Shown: piece by piece, positions 5,558 through 17,701 of the stretch
How the letters are laid out: every line of letters begins with the position of its first letter
How positions within the stretch are numbered: the first letter of the stretch is position 1
Assembly (NCBI GenBank): GCA_030589895.1
Contig: JAUUZQ010000005.1
Location: 1 to 64,000 of the forward strand
DNA: 64,000 nucleotides
Reading direction: 5' to 3'
From: Bacteroidales bacterium
GTDB lineage: Bacteria; Bacteroidota; Bacteroidia; Bacteroidales; GCA-2748055
Notes under the pieces: generated by a model
Seen by the model: only the letters and a program-made list of their open reading frames with translations
Databases searched by the model: none
Told to the model about the DNA's origin: nothing
Made by a program: the position numbers and the translations under genes

Positions 5558-6148
5558 CTATTTTCCATGCCTCTTTTCAAGAATCTTTACCACACTTTCA
5601 AGGTCCTGTCCTTTTGCAGTCAGTAATACCAGGAGGTGATATGTCAGATCTGCTGCTTCGTTGAGGAAGAGTTCATCGTTCTGGTCTTTCGCCTCGATAA
5701 TCAATTCAACAGCCTCTTCTCCAACCTTTTGTGCAATTTTATTTATCCCCTCGCTAAATAGTTGAGTGGTATAACTACCCTCAGGCATATCTTGTTTTCT
5801 TTGCTGAATAACAGACTGTAGTTGTCCGAGAAAATTGATACCGGCACTGTTCTTCTCATTAAAACAGGTGTCAGATCCCGTATGACAAACAGGTCCCACA
5901 GGATTGACTTTTACCAACACGGTATCATTGTCGCAATCTTCAATGAGCTCTACTACGTCAAGAAAATTACCACTCTCCTCCCCTTTTGTCCATAGCCGCT
6001 GCTTTGTCCTGCTGTAAAAAGTAACTCTCCCTTCTTTACGTGTCTTCTCATAAGCTTCACTGTTCATGAAACCAAGCATCAGCACCTTGCTTGTGCTATT
6101 ATCCTGTATAATTGCTGGGATCAGACCTCCCATTTTTTCAAAATCCAT
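5558..6148 (-). CDS. hisI: Bifunctional phosphoribosyl-AMP cyclohydrolase / phosphoribosyl-ATP pyrophosphatase
   Basis: 'MLGFMNSEAYEKTRKEGRVTFYSRTKQRLWTKGEESGN' plus C-terminal HisE motif 'KIAQKVGEEAVELIIEAK'; within the his gene order. Confidence 0.95.
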   Translation of the reverse strand: MDFEKMGGLIPAIIQDNSTSKVLMLGFMNSEAYEKTRKEGRVTFYSRTKQRLWTKGEESGNFLDVVELIEDCDNDTVLVKVNPVGPVCHTGSDTCFNEKNSAGINFLGQLQSVIQQRKQDMPEGSYTTQLFSEGINKIAQKVGEEAVELIIEAKDQNDELFLNEAADLTYHLLVLLTAKGQDLESVVKILEKRHGK

Positions 6149-6153
6149 ATGCT

Positions 6154-6906
6154 TTATCTTACGTTGATATTGTTCTCTATTAAGTATTTTTTTAGTCGTG
6201 GGATAGGTATTTCATTGTAATGAAAAATACTGGCAGCCAATGCAGCATCAGCCTTTCCATTGTTGAATACATCCACAAAATGCTCTTCTTTTCCTGCTCC
6301 ACCTGATGCTATCACAGGGATAGAAAGGATTTCTGATAATTTTCGCAGTGCTTCAACAGCAAAGCCATTCTTTGTTCCATCATGATTCATGGATGTAAAG
6401 AGTATTTCACCGGCACCACGATTCTCAGCCTCTTTTGCCCAGGAAAACAGCTCCTTCTCCACAGGAATCCTACCTCCATTAATGTATACACGCCAGCCAT
6501 CTTTCTCCAATTTGGCATCAATGGCAACAATTACAAACTGATTGCCAAAACTACCTGATATATTGTCGATCAGATTCGGATTTCTAACAGCTGATGAATT
6601 AATCGAAACTTTATCGGCACCTGCCGAAAGCAGTATATCCGCATCTTTCAATTCATTGATTCCACCTCCCACGCTAAAGGGAATATTCAGATTCGCTGCT
6701 ATCCGCGTCACAAGATCTGAAAAGAGTTTCCTTTTTTCGTGTGTTGCTGTAATATCCAGATAAACCAGTTCATCTGCACCATCGCTGGCATATTTGGCCC
6801 CCAGCTCAACCGGATCTCCAACTTCCTGTATATCCAGGAAATTGATTCCCTTAACAGTTTTTCCATTGCGGATATCGAGACATGGTATGATTCGTTTTGC
6901 TAACAT
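6154..6906 (-). CDS. hisF: Imidazole glycerol phosphate synthase subunit HisF
   Basis: '[23 protein letters not shown]', '[26 protein letters not shown]', '[13 protein letters not shown]'. Confidence 0.97.
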
Positions 6907-6915
6907 TGTTCTAGT

Positions 6916-6943
6916 AAAAGGTAAAAGTAAAAAGGTAAAAAGT
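6916..6943. repeat. A/G-rich direct repeat in hisA-hisF gap
   Basis: aaaaggtaaaagtaaaaaggtaaaaagt; a related 21-bp unit recurs at 47611-47664. Confidence 0.6.
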
Positions 6944-6972
6944 GGTGAGGCGAAAAATCACATCTCAATATG

Positions 6973-7692
6973 TTATAAAAATCTTTCGAGCTCTTTCAGG
7001 TCAATTTTCCCTTCGTATATAGCCTTGCCAATAATTACAGCAGGAATATCCATCTCTGCCAGTTTTTCTATATCAGCTATTCCTGATATTCCTCCGCTGG
7101 CAATCAGGTATAGATCCGGAAATGCCTTAATAATCTCATTATAAGTCTCTAATGACACACCCTGAAGTAAGCCATCTTTACTAACATCTGTACAAATGGT
7201 CTGCGTAACACCTCTTTTCACCCACGATTCCAGAAAGGGCATCAGTTCCTGGTCAGACTGCTCTGTCCAGCCTGAAACAACGATCATTTTGTCTTTAAAA
7301 TCACTACCCAGGATGATGCGCTCCGATCCATATTGAGATAGCCAGCTCTCCATCATTTCAGGATTTTTCACTGCTATACTCCCTCCTGTAGCCATTTCAG
7401 CCCCTGACTCAAACACGATTTTCAGATCCTCAATTGTTTTTAATCCACCTCCAACATCCAATCTCAGTGAAGTTCGAGCTGCAATTTTTTCAATCATCCT
7501 GTAATTGATCACTTTCCCCATTCTTGCACCATCCAGATCAACGACATGCAAGCGCTTCAAGCCATGATCCTCAAATCTGATGGCCATCTCAAGTGGATCG
7601 GCGCCATATTCTGTACGCTGATTGTAGTCACCACGTGTAAGTCTCACACACTTTCCGTCTATTATATCTATGGCCGGTATAATCTCTATCAT
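6973..7692 (-). CDS. hisA: Phosphoribosylformimino-5-aminoimidazole carboxamide ribotide isomerase
   Basis: 'MIEIIPAIDIIDGKCVRLTRGDYNQRTEY', 'LDVGGGLKTIEDLKIVFESGA', 'LIASGGISGIADI'. Confidence 0.97.
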   Translation of the reverse strand: MIEIIPAIDIIDGKCVRLTRGDYNQRTEYGADPLEMAIRFEDHGLKRLHVVDLDGARMGKVINYRMIEKIAARTSLRLDVGGGLKTIEDLKIVFESGAEMATGGSIAVKNPEMMESWLSQYGSERIILGSDFKDKMIVVSGWTEQSDQELMPFLESWVKRGVTQTICTDVSKDGLLQGVSLETYNEIIKAFPDLYLIASGGISGIADIEKLAEMDIPAVIIGKAIYEGKIDLKELERFL

Positions 7693-8270
7693 AGTGCGAT
7701 GAAGTTTTTAAGAATTCGTAATCCTGTGTCTCCGCTTTTCTCAGGGTGAAACTGCGTTGCAAAGAAGTTATCCTTTTGCATGGAGGCACTAAAATTCAGT
7801 ATGTAGTTACTCTCAGCAGCTGTATCCTTTCCAACAGGAACATAGTAGGAGTGAACAAAATATACATACTCACCACTATCGATACCTTTGAAAAGATCAC
7901 CTGTCAGATTTTCCAACTGATTCCAGCCCATATGCGGCACATTATCAAGAGGAGGAAATTTCTTCACCGTTTGATTAAAAATCCCAATACAATTTGTATC
8001 ACGTTCTTCAGACCAATCGCACATAAGTTGTTGTCCGAGACAAATACCCAATACAGGCTGGCTCAAACCTTTCAATAACTGATCCATCGAACGCTCTTGC
8101 AGATACTTCATCGTGCTGGCCGCCTCTCCCACCCCGGGAAAGATCACCTTATCTGATGCTCTGATCACAGTCGGATCATCCGTAATTTCTGCTATCACCC
8201 CCATTCTTCGGAGAGCGAAGTCGACAGAGCGGATGTTACCGGCATTGTATTTTATGATGCTTACTGTCAT
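7689..8270 (-). CDS. hisH: Imidazole glycerol phosphate synthase glutamine amidotransferase subunit HisH
   Basis: 'YNAGNIRSVDFALRRMG', nucleophile motif 'PVLGICLGQQLM', 'FFATQFHPEKSGDTGLRILKNF'. Confidence 0.97.
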   Translation of the reverse strand: MTVSIIKYNAGNIRSVDFALRRMGVIAEITDDPTVIRASDKVIFPGVGEAASTMKYLQERSMDQLLKGLSQPVLGICLGQQLMCDWSEERDTNCIGIFNQTVKKFPPLDNVPHMGWNQLENLTGDLFKGIDSGEYVYFVHSYYVPVGKDTAAESNYILNFSASMQKDNFFATQFHPEKSGDTGLRILKNFIAL

Positions 8271-8299
8271 TTATATTTTTTATTAATGCAATAATGATT

Positions 8300-8355
8300 T
8301 GTTGCATTGTTGCATTGTCGCATTGTTGCATTGTCGCATTGTTGCATTATTACAT
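8300..8355. repeat. 8-bp tandem array (TGTTGCAT/TGTCGCAT), about 7 units, in the hisB-hisH gap
   Basis: tgttgcat tgttgcat tgtcgcat tgttgcat tgtcgcat tgttgcat tattacat read directly. Confidence 0.9.
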
Positions 8356-8357
8356 TA

Positions 8358-9476
8358 TCATAGAATACCTTTCGTACTGGGCAGTTTATCACTATTCTTC
8401 TCCAGTTCCACTGCACCTTTCAGCGACCGGCTAAATGCCTTAAAAATTGCCTCAATTTTATGGTGTTCGTTGTTTCCTTCTGCTTTTATATTCAAATTTG
8501 ATTTAGAAGCATCTGAGAATGATTTAAAGAAGTGGTAGAACATCTCTGTGGGAAGATCACCAACTTTCTCCCGATTAAATTCTGCCTCCCAGATAAGCCA
8601 TGACCTTCCTCCAAAATCCACCGCAACATTTGCCAGTGAATCATCCATTGGAAGGGTAAATCCATATCGACTGATTCCTCTCTTATCTCCTAATGCCATT
8701 AAAAATGCCTCACCCAGTGCAATTCCTGTATCCTCAATTGTATGATGCTCATCTACATGCAGATCACCCTTTGTTTTTACAGTGAGATCAAAGTTTCCAT
8801 GCTTTGCAATTTGCTCCAGCATGTGGTCAAAAAATCCCAATCCGGTTTCAATATCAGCCTTGCCGGAACCATCCAGAGATAATTCGATATTTATGGAAGT
8901 TTCATTTGTCTTTCTGCTCACAACTCCCCTTCTCAAACCAGATCGAATGAAACTATAAATCTCATCCCAGCTATTGGTCTTAAGCATACAGACATTCTCA
9001 AGTTCATTTGAACCGATCTCCTTTTCTTTATCGCCATAGAAAATAGCCTTTGTTCCAAGATTTCTTGCCAGCTCAATATCTGTTTTCCGATCTCCTATCA
9101 CATATGAATTTTCCAGGTCGTAATCTCCATTTATATATGCAGACATCATTCCTGTTGCAGGCTTTCTATTTGGAGAGTTCTCCTCTGGAAGTGATGGGTC
9201 AATTAAAATATTATCGAATATAACTCCTTCATTTTCAAATGCCTTAATAAATTTATCGTGAGGTGCTTTAAAAGCTTCTTCAGGAAACTGCTCAGTGCCC
9301 ATTCCATCCTGATTTGAGACAATGACCAATTCATAATCAGTGAATTTACTGATTAGGTACAGATTCCTGAAAACGCCTGGAATAAACTCCAGTTTTTCCA
9401 ATGAATCTATCTGGTAATCGATGGGCGGTTCTACAAGCAATGTACCGTCTCTGTCTATGAATATTACGCGTTTCAT
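8358..9476 (-). CDS. hisB: Bifunctional histidinol-phosphatase / imidazoleglycerol-phosphate dehydratase
   Basis: N-terminal HAD '[14 protein letters not shown]' and C-terminal IGPD '[20 protein letters not shown]', '[16 protein letters not shown]'. Confidence 0.97.
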
Positions 9477-9580
9477 ATTTATATTTTTTATCGAATTACT
9501 ATCGTACGTAATAAATTGTATTTTAAGGTGTTAAATATAATAAACCAGCGTATTTGATGCAATAAATTAAGCCTCTGCTA

Positions 9581-10642
9581 CTACTCACATGATTCTACAA
9601 AATCCCGCTGGTATTGCATTAATGCATTAGTCAATGCACTGTTTTCCTCTTTTGTTCCTATTGTTATGCGCAGAGATCCTTCACAAAGTGGTACATCAGA
9701 GCGGTCACGCACTATGATTTTCCGGCTCACCAGGTAATCATAAACCTCTTTAGGTTTTTTGACCTTCACCAGTAAAAAATTGGCGTCTGATGGATAAACC
9801 TTCTGCACAAACCTGTACATTTTCAATTTCTTCTCCATCTTATTTCTCTCTTTCAGAATTGAATCTACCCACTCCTCTTTAATCGTCTGATTATCCAATG
9901 CATTTATAGCATAATCCATTGTTAGCCTATTGACATTATATGGATATTTCACACTGCTCATGAGCTTAATGATTTCCGTAGAAGCCAAAGCCATTCCAAG
10001 CCGGATACCTGCTATTCCCCATGCCTTCGATAAGGTTTGTAAAACCACCAGGTTCGGATATTTCTGAAGCTCTTCAATCAGGCTGCTTCTCTCGCTAAAA
10101 TCTATGTAAGCCTCATCTACAACAATTAATAGATTAAGATTTTCAGCAAGTTCCAAAATCTGCTTTTTTGGAAATGAATTGGAAGTGGGATTATTTGGGG
10201 AGCAGATGAACAGGAGCTTCGTATGTTTATTGCAAGCCTGTTTAAGTGAGGCAGTATCCAGCGAAAAATCAGGATTAAGCAATACTTTCCTGACTTCAAT
10301 ATCATTAATATCTGCACATACCTGGTACATTCCATAGCTTGGTGAGATGGATACTACATTATCGGTCCCCGGTTCACAGAATATTCGATAAAGAAGGTCA
10401 ATTGCTTCGTCAGATCCATTTCCAAGGAATATCTGGTCTGCCGGGATCTCTTTCATCGCACCGATTTTCTTCTTTAAGTCGCACTGAAGCGGATCAGGAT
10501 ACCTGTTTTGTGGTGCATTGAAGGGATTTTCATTTGCATCCAGGTAAATAGCTTCTCCACCGGTATATTCGTCTCTGGCAGAAGAATAAGGTGTCAGATT
10601 CCTGATGTTTGGTCTTATGAGTATATTCAGGTCAAAATTCAT
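9581..10642 (-). CDS. hisC: Histidinol-phosphate aminotransferase
   Basis: 'YLDANENPFNAPQNRYPDPLQ', 'FLGNGSDEAIDLLYRIFCEPG', 'VVDEAYIDFS', 'TLSKAWGIAGIRLGMA'. Start placed at MNFDLNILIRPNIRNL (10642), not the ORF-track start at 10684. Confidence 0.95.
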   Translation of the reverse strand: MNFDLNILIRPNIRNLTPYSSARDEYTGGEAIYLDANENPFNAPQNRYPDPLQCDLKKKIGAMKEIPADQIFLGNGSDEAIDLLYRIFCEPGTDNVVSISPSYGMYQVCADINDIEVRKVLLNPDFSLDTASLKQACNKHTKLLFICSPNNPTSNSFPKKQILELAENLNLLIVVDEAYIDFSERSSLIEELQKYPNLVVLQTLSKAWGIAGIRLGMALASTEIIKLMSSVKYPYNVNRLTMDYAINALDNQTIKEEWVDSILKERNKMEKKLKMYRFVQKVYPSDANFLLVKVKKPKEVYDYLVSRKIIVRDRSDVPLCEGSLRITIGTKEENSALTNALMQYQRDFVESCE

Positions 10643-10708
10643 AGTTCTGATTGCATTGTTAATAGTGCATTGCGCATAGATCATGGTTCGAAATTTGAGA
10701 TTCGATTT

Positions 10709-11992
10709 TCATAGTTCGGAGTTCAATCTAATTTTAACTGCCTTACTGTGGGCCTGCAGCTTTTCTGCTTCAGCCATACTCATAACAGTATTCCCAATGT
10801 TTGAAAGTCCTTCCTTCGTTATCTCCTGAAATGTAACTTTCTTAACAAAGCTGTCCATATTTAGTCCACTATAAGAATGCGCCCAGCCGTTGGTTGGCAA
10901 GGTATGATTTGTTCCTGAAGCATAATCTCCTACACTTTCCGGAGAATAATTACCCAGAAATACAGACCCTGCATTTATAATATCCTCTGCAATTTCAGTA
11001 TAATTTTCACAAGCAATGATCAAATGCTCAGGAGCATACTCATTCATCATCCTTAGTGCATCTTCCAGCTTGTCAATTAGTATCAATTTACTATTTTCCA
11101 GGGCCTTTTCAGCAATTTCCTTTCGTGGAAGGGATTCCAGTTGCTTATCGAGTTCAATTTGCACCTCTTCCAATAAATCTATCGAATCGCTAATCAGAAT
11201 GACCTGGCTATCTTCACCATGCTCGGCCTGAGACAACAGATCTGAAGCTACGAATGAGGGAATAGCAGTTTTATCGGCCAGAATCGCTAATTCTGAAGGT
11301 CCTGCCGGAATATCAATGGCTACTGTATCAAGTCCCACCAATTGCTTAGCAGCTGTTACCCATTGATTTCCAGGTCCGAATATTTTATTTACTGCAGGAA
11401 TTGTTTCTGTGCCGTATGCCATAGCTGCGATAGCCTGTACTCCACCAATTTTATGCACTTTTTTTATGCCCAATATCTCAGCTATATACAGGATTGCCGG
11501 ACTAATCAAACCTTCTGCATCAGGAGGTGTGCATAGGACAATCTCTCTGCATCCGGCCAATTTAGCGGGAACACCCAGCATTAAAGCAGTTGAAAGCAAA
11601 GGCGCTGTACCTCCTGGTATATAAAGTCCGACCTTTTCAATAGCAAGGGCTTTTTGCCAGCATGTAACACCGGAAGCAGTTTCAGTTTTTATGGTTTTTG
11701 TTATCTGACTCTCATGAAATTTTTCAATGTTCTTTTTAGCATCCAGTATTGCTTTGCGCAATGCCTCATCAACTTCATTTTCTGCATTGGCTAATTCTTC
11801 AGTACTGACTTCAAACTTTTCTAAATCAATTTTATCGAATTGACGGGTGTATTTTCTTACTGCCACATCTCCATTTTCCTTGACATCCTTAAGTATTTCT
11901 CTTACTGATTCATATAGATTTTCACTCTCATATACAGGACGTTGCAGTATTTGAGACCATGAATTTTCCGGTGGATTCAGATATGTATTCAT
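10709..11992 (-). CDS. hisD: Histidinol dehydrogenase
   Basis: 'GLYIPGGTAPLLSTALMLGVPAKLAG', 'GPGNQWVTAAKQLV', 'DIPAGPSELAILAD', 'LLSQAEHGEDSQVIL'. Start taken as MNTYLNPPENSW. Confidence 0.96.
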   Translation of the reverse strand: MNTYLNPPENSWSQILQRPVYESENLYESVREILKDVKENGDVAVRKYTRQFDKIDLEKFEVSTEELANAENEVDEALRKAILDAKKNIEKFHESQITKTIKTETASGVTCWQKALAIEKVGLYIPGGTAPLLSTALMLGVPAKLAGCREIVLCTPPDAEGLISPAILYIAEILGIKKVHKIGGVQAIAAMAYGTETIPAVNKIFGPGNQWVTAAKQLVGLDTVAIDIPAGPSELAILADKTAIPSFVASDLLSQAEHGEDSQVILISDSIDLLEEVQIELDKQLESLPRKEIAEKALENSKLILIDKLEDALRMMNEYAPEHLIIACENYTEIAEDIINAGSVFLGNYSPESVGDYASGTNHTLPTNGWAHSYSGLNMDSFVKKVTFQEITKEGLSNIGNTVMSMAEAEKLQAHSKAVKIRLNSEL

Positions 11993-12042
11993 TGCATTTA
12001 GAGTATATTTCAAATAATCATCACCTCAGTCTAAAGTATGTT

Positions 12043-12900
12043 TCAAATAATCATTTTCTCAATGGGAATAACCAATATACCCTGGGCTCCAAATTCTTTC
12101 AGTTTGCCAATAACCTGCCAAAACTGACTTTCGGAGAGGACCGAATGCACAGAACTCCAACCAGAATCAGCCAATGGCATCACTGTAGGGCTTTTCATTC
12201 CCGGGATTACAGAAATAATGTCGTCCAGTTTGTCATTGGGAGCATTCAGAAGAATATATTTATTATTAGTGGATGCCAGTACACTTCTGATCCGAAACAA
12301 GAGATCATTCAGGATTTCCCTTTTCTCCTGATCCATATCCCGATTTCCTATCACTACAGCTTCTGACTTCATGACAACATCAACTTCTGTCAAGCCATTA
12401 CTGATCAAAGTACTTCCAGAGCTTACTATGTCAAAAATACCATCTGCCAAACCAATTCCCGGCGCTATTTCCACGGATCCTGAGATCTCATGTATCTCGG
12501 CATTTACACCTTTTTCATTCAGAAATTTCTCCAGGATAACAGGATATGAGGTTGCGATCTTCTTACCTTCAAAAAATTCAACTCCCTCATAGTTCAGCTG
12601 CTTTGGTATCGCCAGAGAAAGCCTGCATCTTGAAAAGCCCAGTCTTTCGACAATATCTGCCTCTTTTCCCTTTTCAGCAAAAACATTTTCACCTACAATA
12701 CCAATATCTGCCACACCATCTTCTACATATTGAGGAATATCATCATCTCTGAGATATAATACTTCAATGGGAAAAGATCCCGATTGTGCCAACAACTTCC
12801 TCTCCCCGTTGGTTAGGGAGACTCCTGCTTCCTTCAGAAGATTAATAGATTTCTCACTTAATCTTCCCGACTTCTGTATCGCTATTCGTAATTTCTTCAT
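12043..12900 (-). CDS. hisG: ATP phosphoribosyltransferase (long form)
   Basis: 'KLRIAIQKSGRLSEKSINLLKEAG', 'DIGIVGENVFAEKG', 'IATSYPVILEKFL'; C-terminal regulatory extension. Confidence 0.95.
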   Translation of the reverse strand: MKKLRIAIQKSGRLSEKSINLLKEAGVSLTNGERKLLAQSGSFPIEVLYLRDDDIPQYVEDGVADIGIVGENVFAEKGKEADIVERLGFSRCRLSLAIPKQLNYEGVEFFEGKKIATSYPVILEKFLNEKGVNAEIHEISGSVEIAPGIGLADGIFDIVSSGSTLISNGLTEVDVVMKSEAVVIGNRDMDQEKREILNDLLFRIRSVLASTNNKYILLNAPNDKLDDIISVIPGMKSPTVMPLADSGWSSVHSVLSESQFWQVIGKLKEFGAQGILVIPIEKMII

Positions 12901-12911
12901 TTTTATAAATT

Positions 12912-12941
12912 AAAAAAGGTTTGCAGAATCTGCAAACCTTT
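12912..12941 (-). terminator. Attenuator terminator of the his operon
   Basis: On the minus strand AAAGGTTTGCAG-ATT-CTGCAAACCTTT followed by TTT: 12-bp perfect stem, 3-nt loop, then U-tract, immediately upstream of hisG. Confidence 0.85.
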
Positions 12942-12969
12942 AATGTTACTATAATATGTTTACAATCTT

Positions 12970-13041
12970 CTATCCACGACAAGTCCAAACGCTATGATGA
13001 TGCGCCTGATGATGCCTGATATGGGTATAAAGATTTTTCAT
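12970..13041 (-). CDS. Histidine operon leader peptide (candidate)
   Basis: ATG AAA AAT CTT TAT ACC CAT ATC AGG CAT CAT CAG GCG CAT CAT CAT AGC GTT TGG ACT TGT CGT GGA TAG = MKNLYTHIRHHQAHHHSVWTCRG*, with 6 His codons among 10 (residues 7-16), upstream of the terminator and hisG. Below the ORF-track length cutoff. Confidence 0.85.
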   Translation of the reverse strand: MKNLYTHIRHHQAHHHSVWTCRG

Positions 13042-13248
13042 AATTTCTAACTACGGTGCAATATTAACTATTAATTTTTAAAGTACAAGTCAATTTCAAT
13101 GATAAATTAAAATAAATATTTGCGTTTTACTTATACTTTTAAGATAAGGGAACTGAGATGTGAGATGCAAAGGGCAGGGTTCCGGATATGTATAGCAAGG
13201 TACAGGATGTGAGGTGCAGGTACGAAGTATGCTCCGGGAGCGACATAT

Positions 13249-14679: not shown

Positions 14680-16005
14680 CTACACTTCCAGGTTGGAGAT
14701 ATCAAGAATAAATCCTTCCATTCCAACAACCTTATTCCCTTCATAAACGGGATTTGCAGAGAGTATGTGTCGACCGGTAGAACCATCCCTGCATAACCTG
14801 GTGGCATGAGAACTTAATAAAGGTTCTCCTTTCATTACTCTATTGAAGGTATTTTCCAGCTTCAGCAATTCATCCGGATTCCTGGAAATTGAATAATGAC
14901 GGCCGATAACTTCATCTTTGTTATCATATTTATAGAGTCTAAGCCATGCTTCATTCACATCGAGCATCATGCCTTTGTCATCAATTCTATAGTAGCCGGC
15001 ACTGCTGTCTCTGATTGCATGGTCAACATGCTCAGAAAATGGAGCTGACTCATCTATATCAATTATAAACCCCTCGATACCAGTGATTTCATCATCCTCT
15101 TTCACAGGGTTCATTGATAAAAGGTGATGAGCTTTTGATCCATCCATGCATTTTCTGGTTACCGGAACCCCTGAAAAATACGCACCCTTCAGTGCTTTCT
15201 GAATCATATCCTCCAGTATCTTTTGATCATCCGAATCACGTGTCAATGCGTAGTGTTTACCAAGGATAGCATCACGATCCTTACATTTATAAAGCTTTAA
15301 CCAAGTATTATTTACATCTACTATTTTCCCATCCGTACTAATCCTGTAATATCCGGCAGCACTATCATTTACAGCATCTTCCAGGTGTTTCATGCGCTCC
15401 TCATGAGAATCTACATCGATAACTTCCCATCCGGTAATCATCGCTTTTATACTTGTCAGCGGTTTATCACCGGTTGTGGTGAGATATACATGAGCAACCA
15501 CAAAGGCGAGAAGTGAAAATGCACCAAAAGTATGCAGATAGGCAAGATTTGTCAGTCCATTTAATTGAATAGGATTATTAGGATACAAATAATACATATA
15601 GATGAATCCGGTTATGACCATCAATGGAATAATAAGCAGTTTTAATCCCAGGTAGACAAACCTCTGTAAAGGGTTGAATTTGTTATAGATAGTCTTGTGC
15701 GTAGGATGTGGTGCACCTTTGAATATCCCGGATATATAGTATGTAAATTGTGCCTTAAGAAACTTTGTAGTTGGAATATACTGTTTCCATTCCCCTGTAA
15801 CAAAATGCCAGAAAATAGTAAATACAATAAGCACCAGGAGGGCCCAGGCGGCGGTGTTATGCCAGACAATCACATTTTCAAAACCAAATATTGTATAGCT
15901 GCCATGGATTTCCAATCCGGTTAATGCAAGAAAGAATATGAGGAGCGCCTGGCTCCAATGCCAAAATCGTTCAAATCCCCGGTATATATATGTTCTCTTT
16001 TTCAT
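14680..16005 (-). CDS. Cytochrome b561/HupC-like membrane cytochrome b fused to two C-terminal PAS domains
   Basis: TM region with 'RFWHWSQALLIFFLALTGLEIHGSY', 'FWHFVTGEW', 'AFVVAHVYLTTTGDKP', then two homologous PAS repeats ('SAAGYYRISTDGKIVDVNNTWLKLYKCKDRDAILGKHY' and 'SSAGYYRIDDKGMMLDVNEAWLRLYKYDNKDEVIGRHY'). Confidence 0.85.
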   Translation of the reverse strand: MKKRTYIYRGFERFWHWSQALLIFFLALTGLEIHGSYTIFGFENVIVWHNTAAWALLVLIVFTIFWHFVTGEWKQYIPTTKFLKAQFTYYISGIFKGAPHPTHKTIYNKFNPLQRFVYLGLKLLIIPLMVITGFIYMYYLYPNNPIQLNGLTNLAYLHTFGAFSLLAFVVAHVYLTTTGDKPLTSIKAMITGWEVIDVDSHEERMKHLEDAVNDSAAGYYRISTDGKIVDVNNTWLKLYKCKDRDAILGKHYALTRDSDDQKILEDMIQKALKGAYFSGVPVTRKCMDGSKAHHLLSMNPVKEDDEITGIEGFIIDIDESAPFSEHVDHAIRDSSAGYYRIDDKGMMLDVNEAWLRLYKYDNKDEVIGRHYSISRNPDELLKLENTFNRVMKGEPLLSSHATRLCRDGSTGRHILSANPVYEGNKVVGMEGFILDISNLEV

Positions 16006-16029: not shown

Positions 16030-17634
16030 TTATTTTTTTATTATTCTTATTGCTGCGTGAATTCCTACTCCGGCTATTGCGAATATTATGAGTAAGAATC
16101 CAACTTTATCAAGCAATGGACTTCTATCTCTTCCAGCAAGGTAGAATCCGGACACATTGTATAGTCTGCCATCCCGTGAATGACAATCATTACACTTAAG
16201 GGACTGATCTGCAGGTGCCACCATATGGTTAATGGGCCAATACATTTCAGTAGAAATGAATGAATACTCTCCACTATATGGCAAGTTTACTCTTTCCATG
16301 CCAATTTCAGCAGCAATATCCCAATTGAAGCCTTTCCAAAAAGCAGTACTGTCTTTTCCAAAAAGTAGTGCCTGGATCATTGTGTTGTTAACGGGATCAT
16401 AAATTTGTTTTCCCCTGTGAACTTTTACCGGAACCAGAATAGATTCTTTCTCGTGATAGTCACCGTGTAATGTATTAATCTGAACCGGTCCTGTTGTGTC
16501 AAGCTGCTCACCAAGAACATAATGACTTGCTTTTCCATTAAACCAAACATATTCCGGCTCTACGTTGTTAGCCCACTGAAAAGTTCCTTTCTGCGTATGG
16601 TAAGAGATATTACCCATGCTATCATATTCTACAATATGAGAACCATCTTCATTCGTTCTTCCGGCTGTTGACCAGTCCCAATACATTTTAGTCGAACTCT
16701 CCCGTGCAAAACCAGGAATATGACATGTCTGGCAAGCTATCCTGCTAACATGTTTGTTCAGGTTCCTGCTCTTATGAGGCTGATCGGTATGACACTGATT
16801 ACAGGTAACTCTATTATCGTCCACAGAAGCAATTGAATAGAGGTTTCCTGAGATATTGTGATTAGTTGTCTTGTGGCAATCAATACAATTCAAATTTGCT
16901 CCGTCTTCTGCCATATGTACATCCACATCTCTTGTTATGGCAACTAATTCACTGGCAATATCTCCATGCTTTACGTTGTTTCCGCCCCCACCTACGAAAT
17001 GACATGCACCACAATTTTCCTTTCCGGGAATACCAACATTTTGAGCAATGAGATTGTAGTCAGGCGGATAAAATGTTTTTTCCTTGAATTTCTTTTCAAC
17101 CGTAGCCGGATAACCCGCTGCAGTAGGATACTTCTCGTACGTACCGGTCTTGTCGTGACAAACGATGCAATCAATGTTGCTACTGTTAGTGAAGTCAAAC
17201 GAATCATCTTCCCAACCATAACCTATATGACAACTTGTGCATCTTGTTTCATTTGTCGCTATTCCAATACAAAAGTTATTTATGATGTTCTTTTTACCAA
17301 GTTGTATGGTAGTTCCATCTTCCATTTTATAATCCCGGGACCAGGTCCAGTGAGAAGATTTCATCACATCCTGTGCGGTCATATTGTGACAAGTAAGACA
17401 TGCATCTGTAACTTCATGTGGCGTATTGAACTCCTGTTGGAGGGATAAGAACTTGCTATGATCAACTTTCGCTGTACTGTCAACACTGTAATTTACAGCG
17501 GGAACATCCATTTCCAGTTTCATTTCATTCACTTCTCCAATTATGATCACGGCTATAATCCATGGTATCGTAATAGATAAGAAGAGTATAAGAAGTTTAA
17601 TTAAGTTTCTGTTTGGTTTCTGTTTTATATGCAT
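16030..17634 (-). CDS. Tetrathionate reductase family octaheme c-type cytochrome
   Basis: Eight CXXCH motifs (CLTCH, CTSCH, CIVCH, CGACH, CIDCH, CNQCH, CQTCH, CNDCH), N-terminal TM anchor and C-terminal TM. Start taken as MHIKQKPNRNL. Confidence 0.88.
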   Translation of the reverse strand: MHIKQKPNRNLIKLLILFLSITIPWIIAVIIIGEVNEMKLEMDVPAVNYSVDSTAKVDHSKFLSLQQEFNTPHEVTDACLTCHNMTAQDVMKSSHWTWSRDYKMEDGTTIQLGKKNIINNFCIGIATNETRCTSCHIGYGWEDDSFDFTNSSNIDCIVCHDKTGTYEKYPTAAGYPATVEKKFKEKTFYPPDYNLIAQNVGIPGKENCGACHFVGGGGNNVKHGDIASELVAITRDVDVHMAEDGANLNCIDCHKTTNHNISGNLYSIASVDDNRVTCNQCHTDQPHKSRNLNKHVSRIACQTCHIPGFARESSTKMYWDWSTAGRTNEDGSHIVEYDSMGNISYHTQKGTFQWANNVEPEYVWFNGKASHYVLGEQLDTTGPVQINTLHGDYHEKESILVPVKVHRGKQIYDPVNNTMIQALLFGKDSTAFWKGFNWDIAAEIGMERVNLPYSGEYSFISTEMYWPINHMVAPADQSLKCNDCHSRDGRLYNVSGFYLAGRDRSPLLDKVGFLLIIFAIAGVGIHAAIRIIKK

Positions 17635-17701
17635 ATCATCGATTTTTTGGCCTCGAAGCACTTAATAATTGATAAATCAAAAAAATGAAGCAGCAAATAT
17701 A

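Follow-up and report, generated by a model that had tools for sequence, protein, structure and literature searches.

The window, a stretch of 64,000 nt from a Bacteroidales bacterium of the GCA-2748055 lineage (assembly GCA_030589895.1, contig JAUUZQ010000005.1, positions 1–64,000), carries a complete histidine operon, hisGDCBHAF(IE), on its minus strand. On this strand, the promoter element TAATATTG is followed by a leader ORF, a gap of 28 nt, a hairpin with a run of T's, hisG, and the rest of the operon, so that all the his genes lie downstream of the terminator (table 1). The genes hisG, hisD, hisC, hisB (bifunctional), and hisH scored above the NCBIfam cut-offs; hisA, hisF, and hisIE were named by inspection of their ORFs. 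The upstream neighbor gene (14556–13249) is transcribed from the same strand. Also near the operon on the minus strand, ORF inspection pointed to a multihaem cytochrome-like protein with many CxxCH motifs (16030–17661) and a cytochrome b561-like protein (14680–16005), the latter with two similar PAS-like segments.

Table 1. Features of the his locus, in window coordinates.
Feature	Position	Strand	Details
Promoter −7 element TAATATTG	13059..13066	−	Bacteroidota TAnnTTTG type, recognized by sequence; ends 17 nt before the leader ATG
Leader peptide ORF MKNLYTHIRHHQAHHHSVWTCRG, putative sensor	12970..13041	−	23 codons; ATG at 13041, TAG at 12972–12970
Arm A, start of the leader ORF	13015..13036	−	Possible protector/pause hairpin with 12984–12963; predicted −13.1 kcal/mol; in the minimum-energy fold
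Arm B, antiterminator 5' strand UUGUAAAC	12958..12965	−	4–12 nt past the leader stop codon
Arm C, terminator 5' arm AAAGGUUUGCAG	12930..12941	−	12937–12930 also used by the antiterminator
Arm D, terminator 3' arm CUGCAAACCUUU	12915..12926	−	Enters a U-tract ending at about 12912
hisG, first gene of the operon	12043..12900	−	NCBIfam TIGR00070 and TIGR03455; start at 12900
hisD, hisC, hisB, hisH, hisA, hisF, hisIE	5558..12013	−	Remainder of the operon

Histidine occupies residues 7, 10, 11, 14, 15, and 16 of the leader peptide and is encoded by CAT at each of them. With six His codons in ten residues, this is the 23-residue ORF with H, HH, and HHH runs recorded in a preliminary description of the locus. 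A short ORF rich in codons for the very amino acid that the operon produces thus precedes the his genes. When the 450-nt upstream region was shuffled with its dinucleotide composition preserved, an ORF with at least five His in eight residues arose in only 1 of 5000 shuffles. At 91 of 120 loci a TAnnWTTG motif stands no more than 40 nt upstream of the leader start codon (9.75 loci expected from shuffles), and its conservation suggests that transcription starts just downstream of this −7 element. In several Chitinophagaceae loci, including L045, L050, and L075, the element ends only about 4–10 nt before the ATG, and the leader mRNA may therefore be leaderless or nearly so.

Between the leader ORF and the first gene lies an intrinsic terminator, AAAGGTTTGCAG-ATT-CTGCAAACCTTT (12941–12915), whose 12-bp stem, 3-nt loop, and U-tract agree with the hairpin reported earlier; it is the strongest terminator-like match in 10 kb. 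Searching all 64 kb of the window for codon-run leaders followed by terminators returned only the his locus. The terminator core is unique in the 3.84-Mb assembly, and the idea of a widespread genomic repeat was rejected accordingly.

A strand able to compete with the terminator had also been proposed. The pairing itself, with its G-U wobbles, was recovered, but its position had to be corrected from 12954–12961 to 12965–12958 (TTGTAAAC), which forms 8 bp with 12937–12930 (GTTTGCAG), two of them G-U. The energy of this pairing between arm B (UUGUAAAC) and arm C (GUUUGCAG) is −7.4 kcal/mol, a value reached by 3% of shuffles (p 0.03), and an extended antiterminator joining 12972–12957 to 12938–12925 reaches −10.0 kcal/mol. 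As a whole, the leader RNA folds far better than its shuffles (z = −4.07). The B:C helix is predicted to form when a ribosome is stalled at codons 7, 10, 11, or 16, and to be abolished by a ribosome on the stop codon; for a ribosome at codon 14 or 15, the predicted partner of arm C is leader sequence 12988–12981 and not arm B. The predicted antiterminator and the terminator exclude one another: a stalled ribosome would leave the antiterminator available, and one that completes the peptide would cover it. The final minimum-energy fold favors the terminator in every case, which means that antitermination must be kinetic. Less can be said of a ribosome-free transcript: the A:B helix overlaps B:C only slightly at this locus, part of B:C is predicted to form before arm D even with no ribosome, and termination is consequently not clearly predicted in that state. 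As A:B pairing is significant against shuffles in 24 of 123 loci, a weak enrichment, we make no claim for a protector hairpin in the window.

Comparison with relatives had been suggested as one means of refuting the preliminary reading, which passed: His codons and hairpin are kept, at near-constant spacing, upstream of most related hisG genes. Two partly overlapping sets of upstream regions were used (L082 and L002, for instance, are one contig). The first comprises the window and the loci of its 80 nearest HisG relatives among GTDB species genomes; for the second, 149 genomes were sampled evenly from the order, of which 75 have hisG, and 70 regions, the window's included, were examined. Short ORFs that pack four or more His into eight residues were present in 72 of the 81 regions of the first set, and in 51 of the 70 regions of the second, as compared with 2 of 1400 shuffles. 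A terminator follows the leader in 128 of 135 loci from the two sets. Spacing between the last His codon and the terminator 5' arm is tightly held (quartiles 51, 55, and 59 nt over 112 distinct loci; 55 nt in the window). In a phylum-wide sample, clustered-His leaders (at least three in eight) were found at 35 of 40 loci with HisG scoring above 250 bits and at none of 15 loci with diverged HisG (about 105–130 bits), and the element recurs in several Bacteroidota classes. Peptide length ranges from 14 to 26 residues (5–95% range) and the non-His residues vary widely, and from clade to clade nothing is retained but the His codons, the spacing, and the alternative pairings. A few distant relatives (L186–L190) have long His-rich ORFs, such as VNRKNLHTTHLHHGVHHLHQGHHHA, before hisG with no recognized intrinsic terminator, and may use an output other than intrinsic termination.

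The proposed antiterminator role was supported by shuffling, swapping, and staged folding across loci. At 50 of 123 loci, where about six would be expected, B:C pairing was as strong as the best 5% of shuffles. When terminator arms were swapped between loci, each locus's B region paired better with its own arm than with those of other loci, by a mean of 1.7 kcal/mol (Wilcoxon p = 7e-9, uncorrected for ancestry), and the region further upstream, which contains the His codons and served as negative control, showed no own-arm preference (p = 0.54). This preference points to covariation, shared ancestry being uncorrected. Among the window's nearest relatives (L002–L011, L016, and L083), there is almost no variation in arm C, and its pairing with the B strand, TGTAAnCC, contains one mismatch and does no better than shuffles; the covariation signal therefore rests on more distant clades, and the sequences of the nearest relatives argue for conservation, not covariation. 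Among the 48 B arms with good support, 25 overlap the stop codon of the leader and 8 begin at most 12 nt past it, so that a ribosome finishing the peptide would cover the antiterminator strand. When folding was staged to a point at which arm D did not yet exist, arm C was 66% paired upstream with the ribosome on the last His codon and 33% with the ribosome at the stop codon (p = 6e-11). Among the pairing motifs, GGTAAGCC matches GGCTTACC and CAGGCGAGG matches CCCGTCTG, and the peptide tails LPxR and QAR, which recur within clades, may thus be driven by the RNA through B:C pairing.

Taken together, these data give us high confidence that the element senses histidine and attenuates transcription by the classical ribosome-mediated route, and the earlier likening of its layout to enteric hisL is upheld by the conservation, spacing, and pairing tests. 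That the same arrangement occurs in most sampled Bacteroidota genomes makes a textbook switch responding to histidine shortage very probable. The parts, their conservation, their spacing, and their competing pairings are observed features, from which we infer translation of the leader ORF, its response to histidine, and termination of transcription in vivo. RNA polymerase would start just upstream of the leader ORF with a ribosome following. When charged tRNA-His is plentiful, the ribosome would reach the stop codon at 12972 and cover arm B, leaving arm C free to fold with arm D, and transcription would stop short of hisG, at about 12912. Under a shortage of charged tRNA-His, the ribosome would wait at the His codons (13023–12994) and leave arm B exposed; the pairing of arms B and C would then precede the synthesis of arm D and pre-empt the terminator, and hisGDCBHAF(IE) would be transcribed.

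Other explanations were weighed against the same data. Because runs of histidine bind Ni, Zn, or Cu, the ORF could encode a functional metal-binding peptide, the hairpin merely ending its transcript. Such a peptide would hardly be expected to vary so freely in length and in everything but its His residues while terminator spacing and alternative pairing are both conserved, nor to stand directly before hisG when an equivalent element before trpE carries Trp codons, and we regard this explanation as highly improbable. The leader ORF might instead act on translation or on Rho-dependent termination, as the His leaders of distant relatives such as L186–L190 could suggest; since a strong intrinsic terminator with its U-tract is present in the window and in nearly all closer relatives, this too is very unlikely.

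Control by a T-box or another structured riboswitch, the His ORF being incidental, has a precedent in Firmicutes, where his genes are under T-box control (PMC9413887). Yet no Rfam family, His_leader (RF00514) and T-box included, was matched at the gathering threshold in the window or in 13 relatives, and the leader region spans only about 140 nt, which leaves such a riboswitch barely plausible. At a permissive threshold nothing credible appeared, the weak matches to sRNA and miRNA models being hairpin matches. Finally, a terminator might be expected between the his operon and its same-strand upstream neighbor, and a His-rich ORF could have arisen beside it at random; the rarity of such ORFs among shuffles and the phylum-wide recurrence of the arrangement exclude this for practical purposes.

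The attenuator thus favored shares with enterobacterial hisL (RF00514) a leader with His codons, an antiterminator competing with an intrinsic terminator, a position directly before hisG, and the same logic. It differs from it in having no Rfam match, a smaller leader region, fewer and split His runs, and an unrelated peptide, as had been noticed for the window and holds more widely since the peptide also changes from clade to clade. In addition, arm B lies at or just past the stop codon in many Bacteroidota loci, and a separate pause hairpin is not clearly seen at the window locus.

Vitreschak et al. 2004 (FEMS Microbiol Lett) reportedly predicted attenuators of amino acid operons in Bacteroidetes/Chlorobi, and these predictions may already include cases of the Bacteroidota his family. 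The coverage of that work aside, our literature search found no his leader attenuator described in Bacteroidota. A recent survey of histidine regulation records attenuators in Proteobacteria and in a few Firmicutes (PMC9413887), another based on Rfam proposed that amino acid attenuators may have arisen in gammaproteobacteria with little spread (PMC3766115), and leader-like sORFs, not further specified, have been noted in Bacteroides (PMC7366714). The Firmicutes attenuators also combine a short ORF bearing a His run with a terminator and an antiterminator before his genes, but are few and lineage specific (Bacillus cereus group, Peptostreptococcaceae, and Erysipelotrichales), whereas the Bacteroidota element is spread over most of its phylum, a comparison drawn from published descriptions (PMC9413887; PMC2965389). 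The mechanism itself is textbook ribosome-mediated attenuation; it is the phylum-wide Bacteroidota form that appears new, the his element belonging to an apparently uncatalogued phylum-wide family.

Because the element stands before hisG in most of the Bacteroidota sampled that share the window's HisG type, the phylum probably regulates histidine synthesis by attenuation. Bacteroidota are a major phylum that includes gut and environmental bacteria, and Rfam holds no such family for them. Their mRNAs mostly lack Shine-Dalgarno sequences, and his attenuation would imply that transcription and translation are closely coordinated in them.

Further leaders were sought in the same genome at chorismate-binding, ilvD, and homoserine dehydrogenase loci. 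A Trp leader, MKQIFINTNWWWFSDNT, with a WWW run and an intrinsic terminator, was found on another contig (C57 of genome G000; L208:390–531), directly before trpE and a trpG-like gene and with 55 nt between its last Trp codon and the terminator arm. A search for a plasmid relative gave no match. Elsewhere, two His leader–terminator modules stand in series before hisG (L020, L028, L033/L092, L054, L087, L088, L090, L110, and L139), apparently forming double attenuators for one amino acid in several lineages. Such tandem modules would multiply two readthrough probabilities and so could give a steeper response. We put at about even the chances of a broader scenario, in which compact attenuators with the antiterminator strand at the stop codon are ancestral to the phylum, are not homologous to those of proteobacteria, and serve both his and trp operons, sometimes in tandem for a steeper response. 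Salmonella mgtCBR also has two successive leader ORFs (PMC3641672), which answer different signals (ATP and proline), whereas both modules of the relatives with tandem elements carry His codons and the window has a single module.
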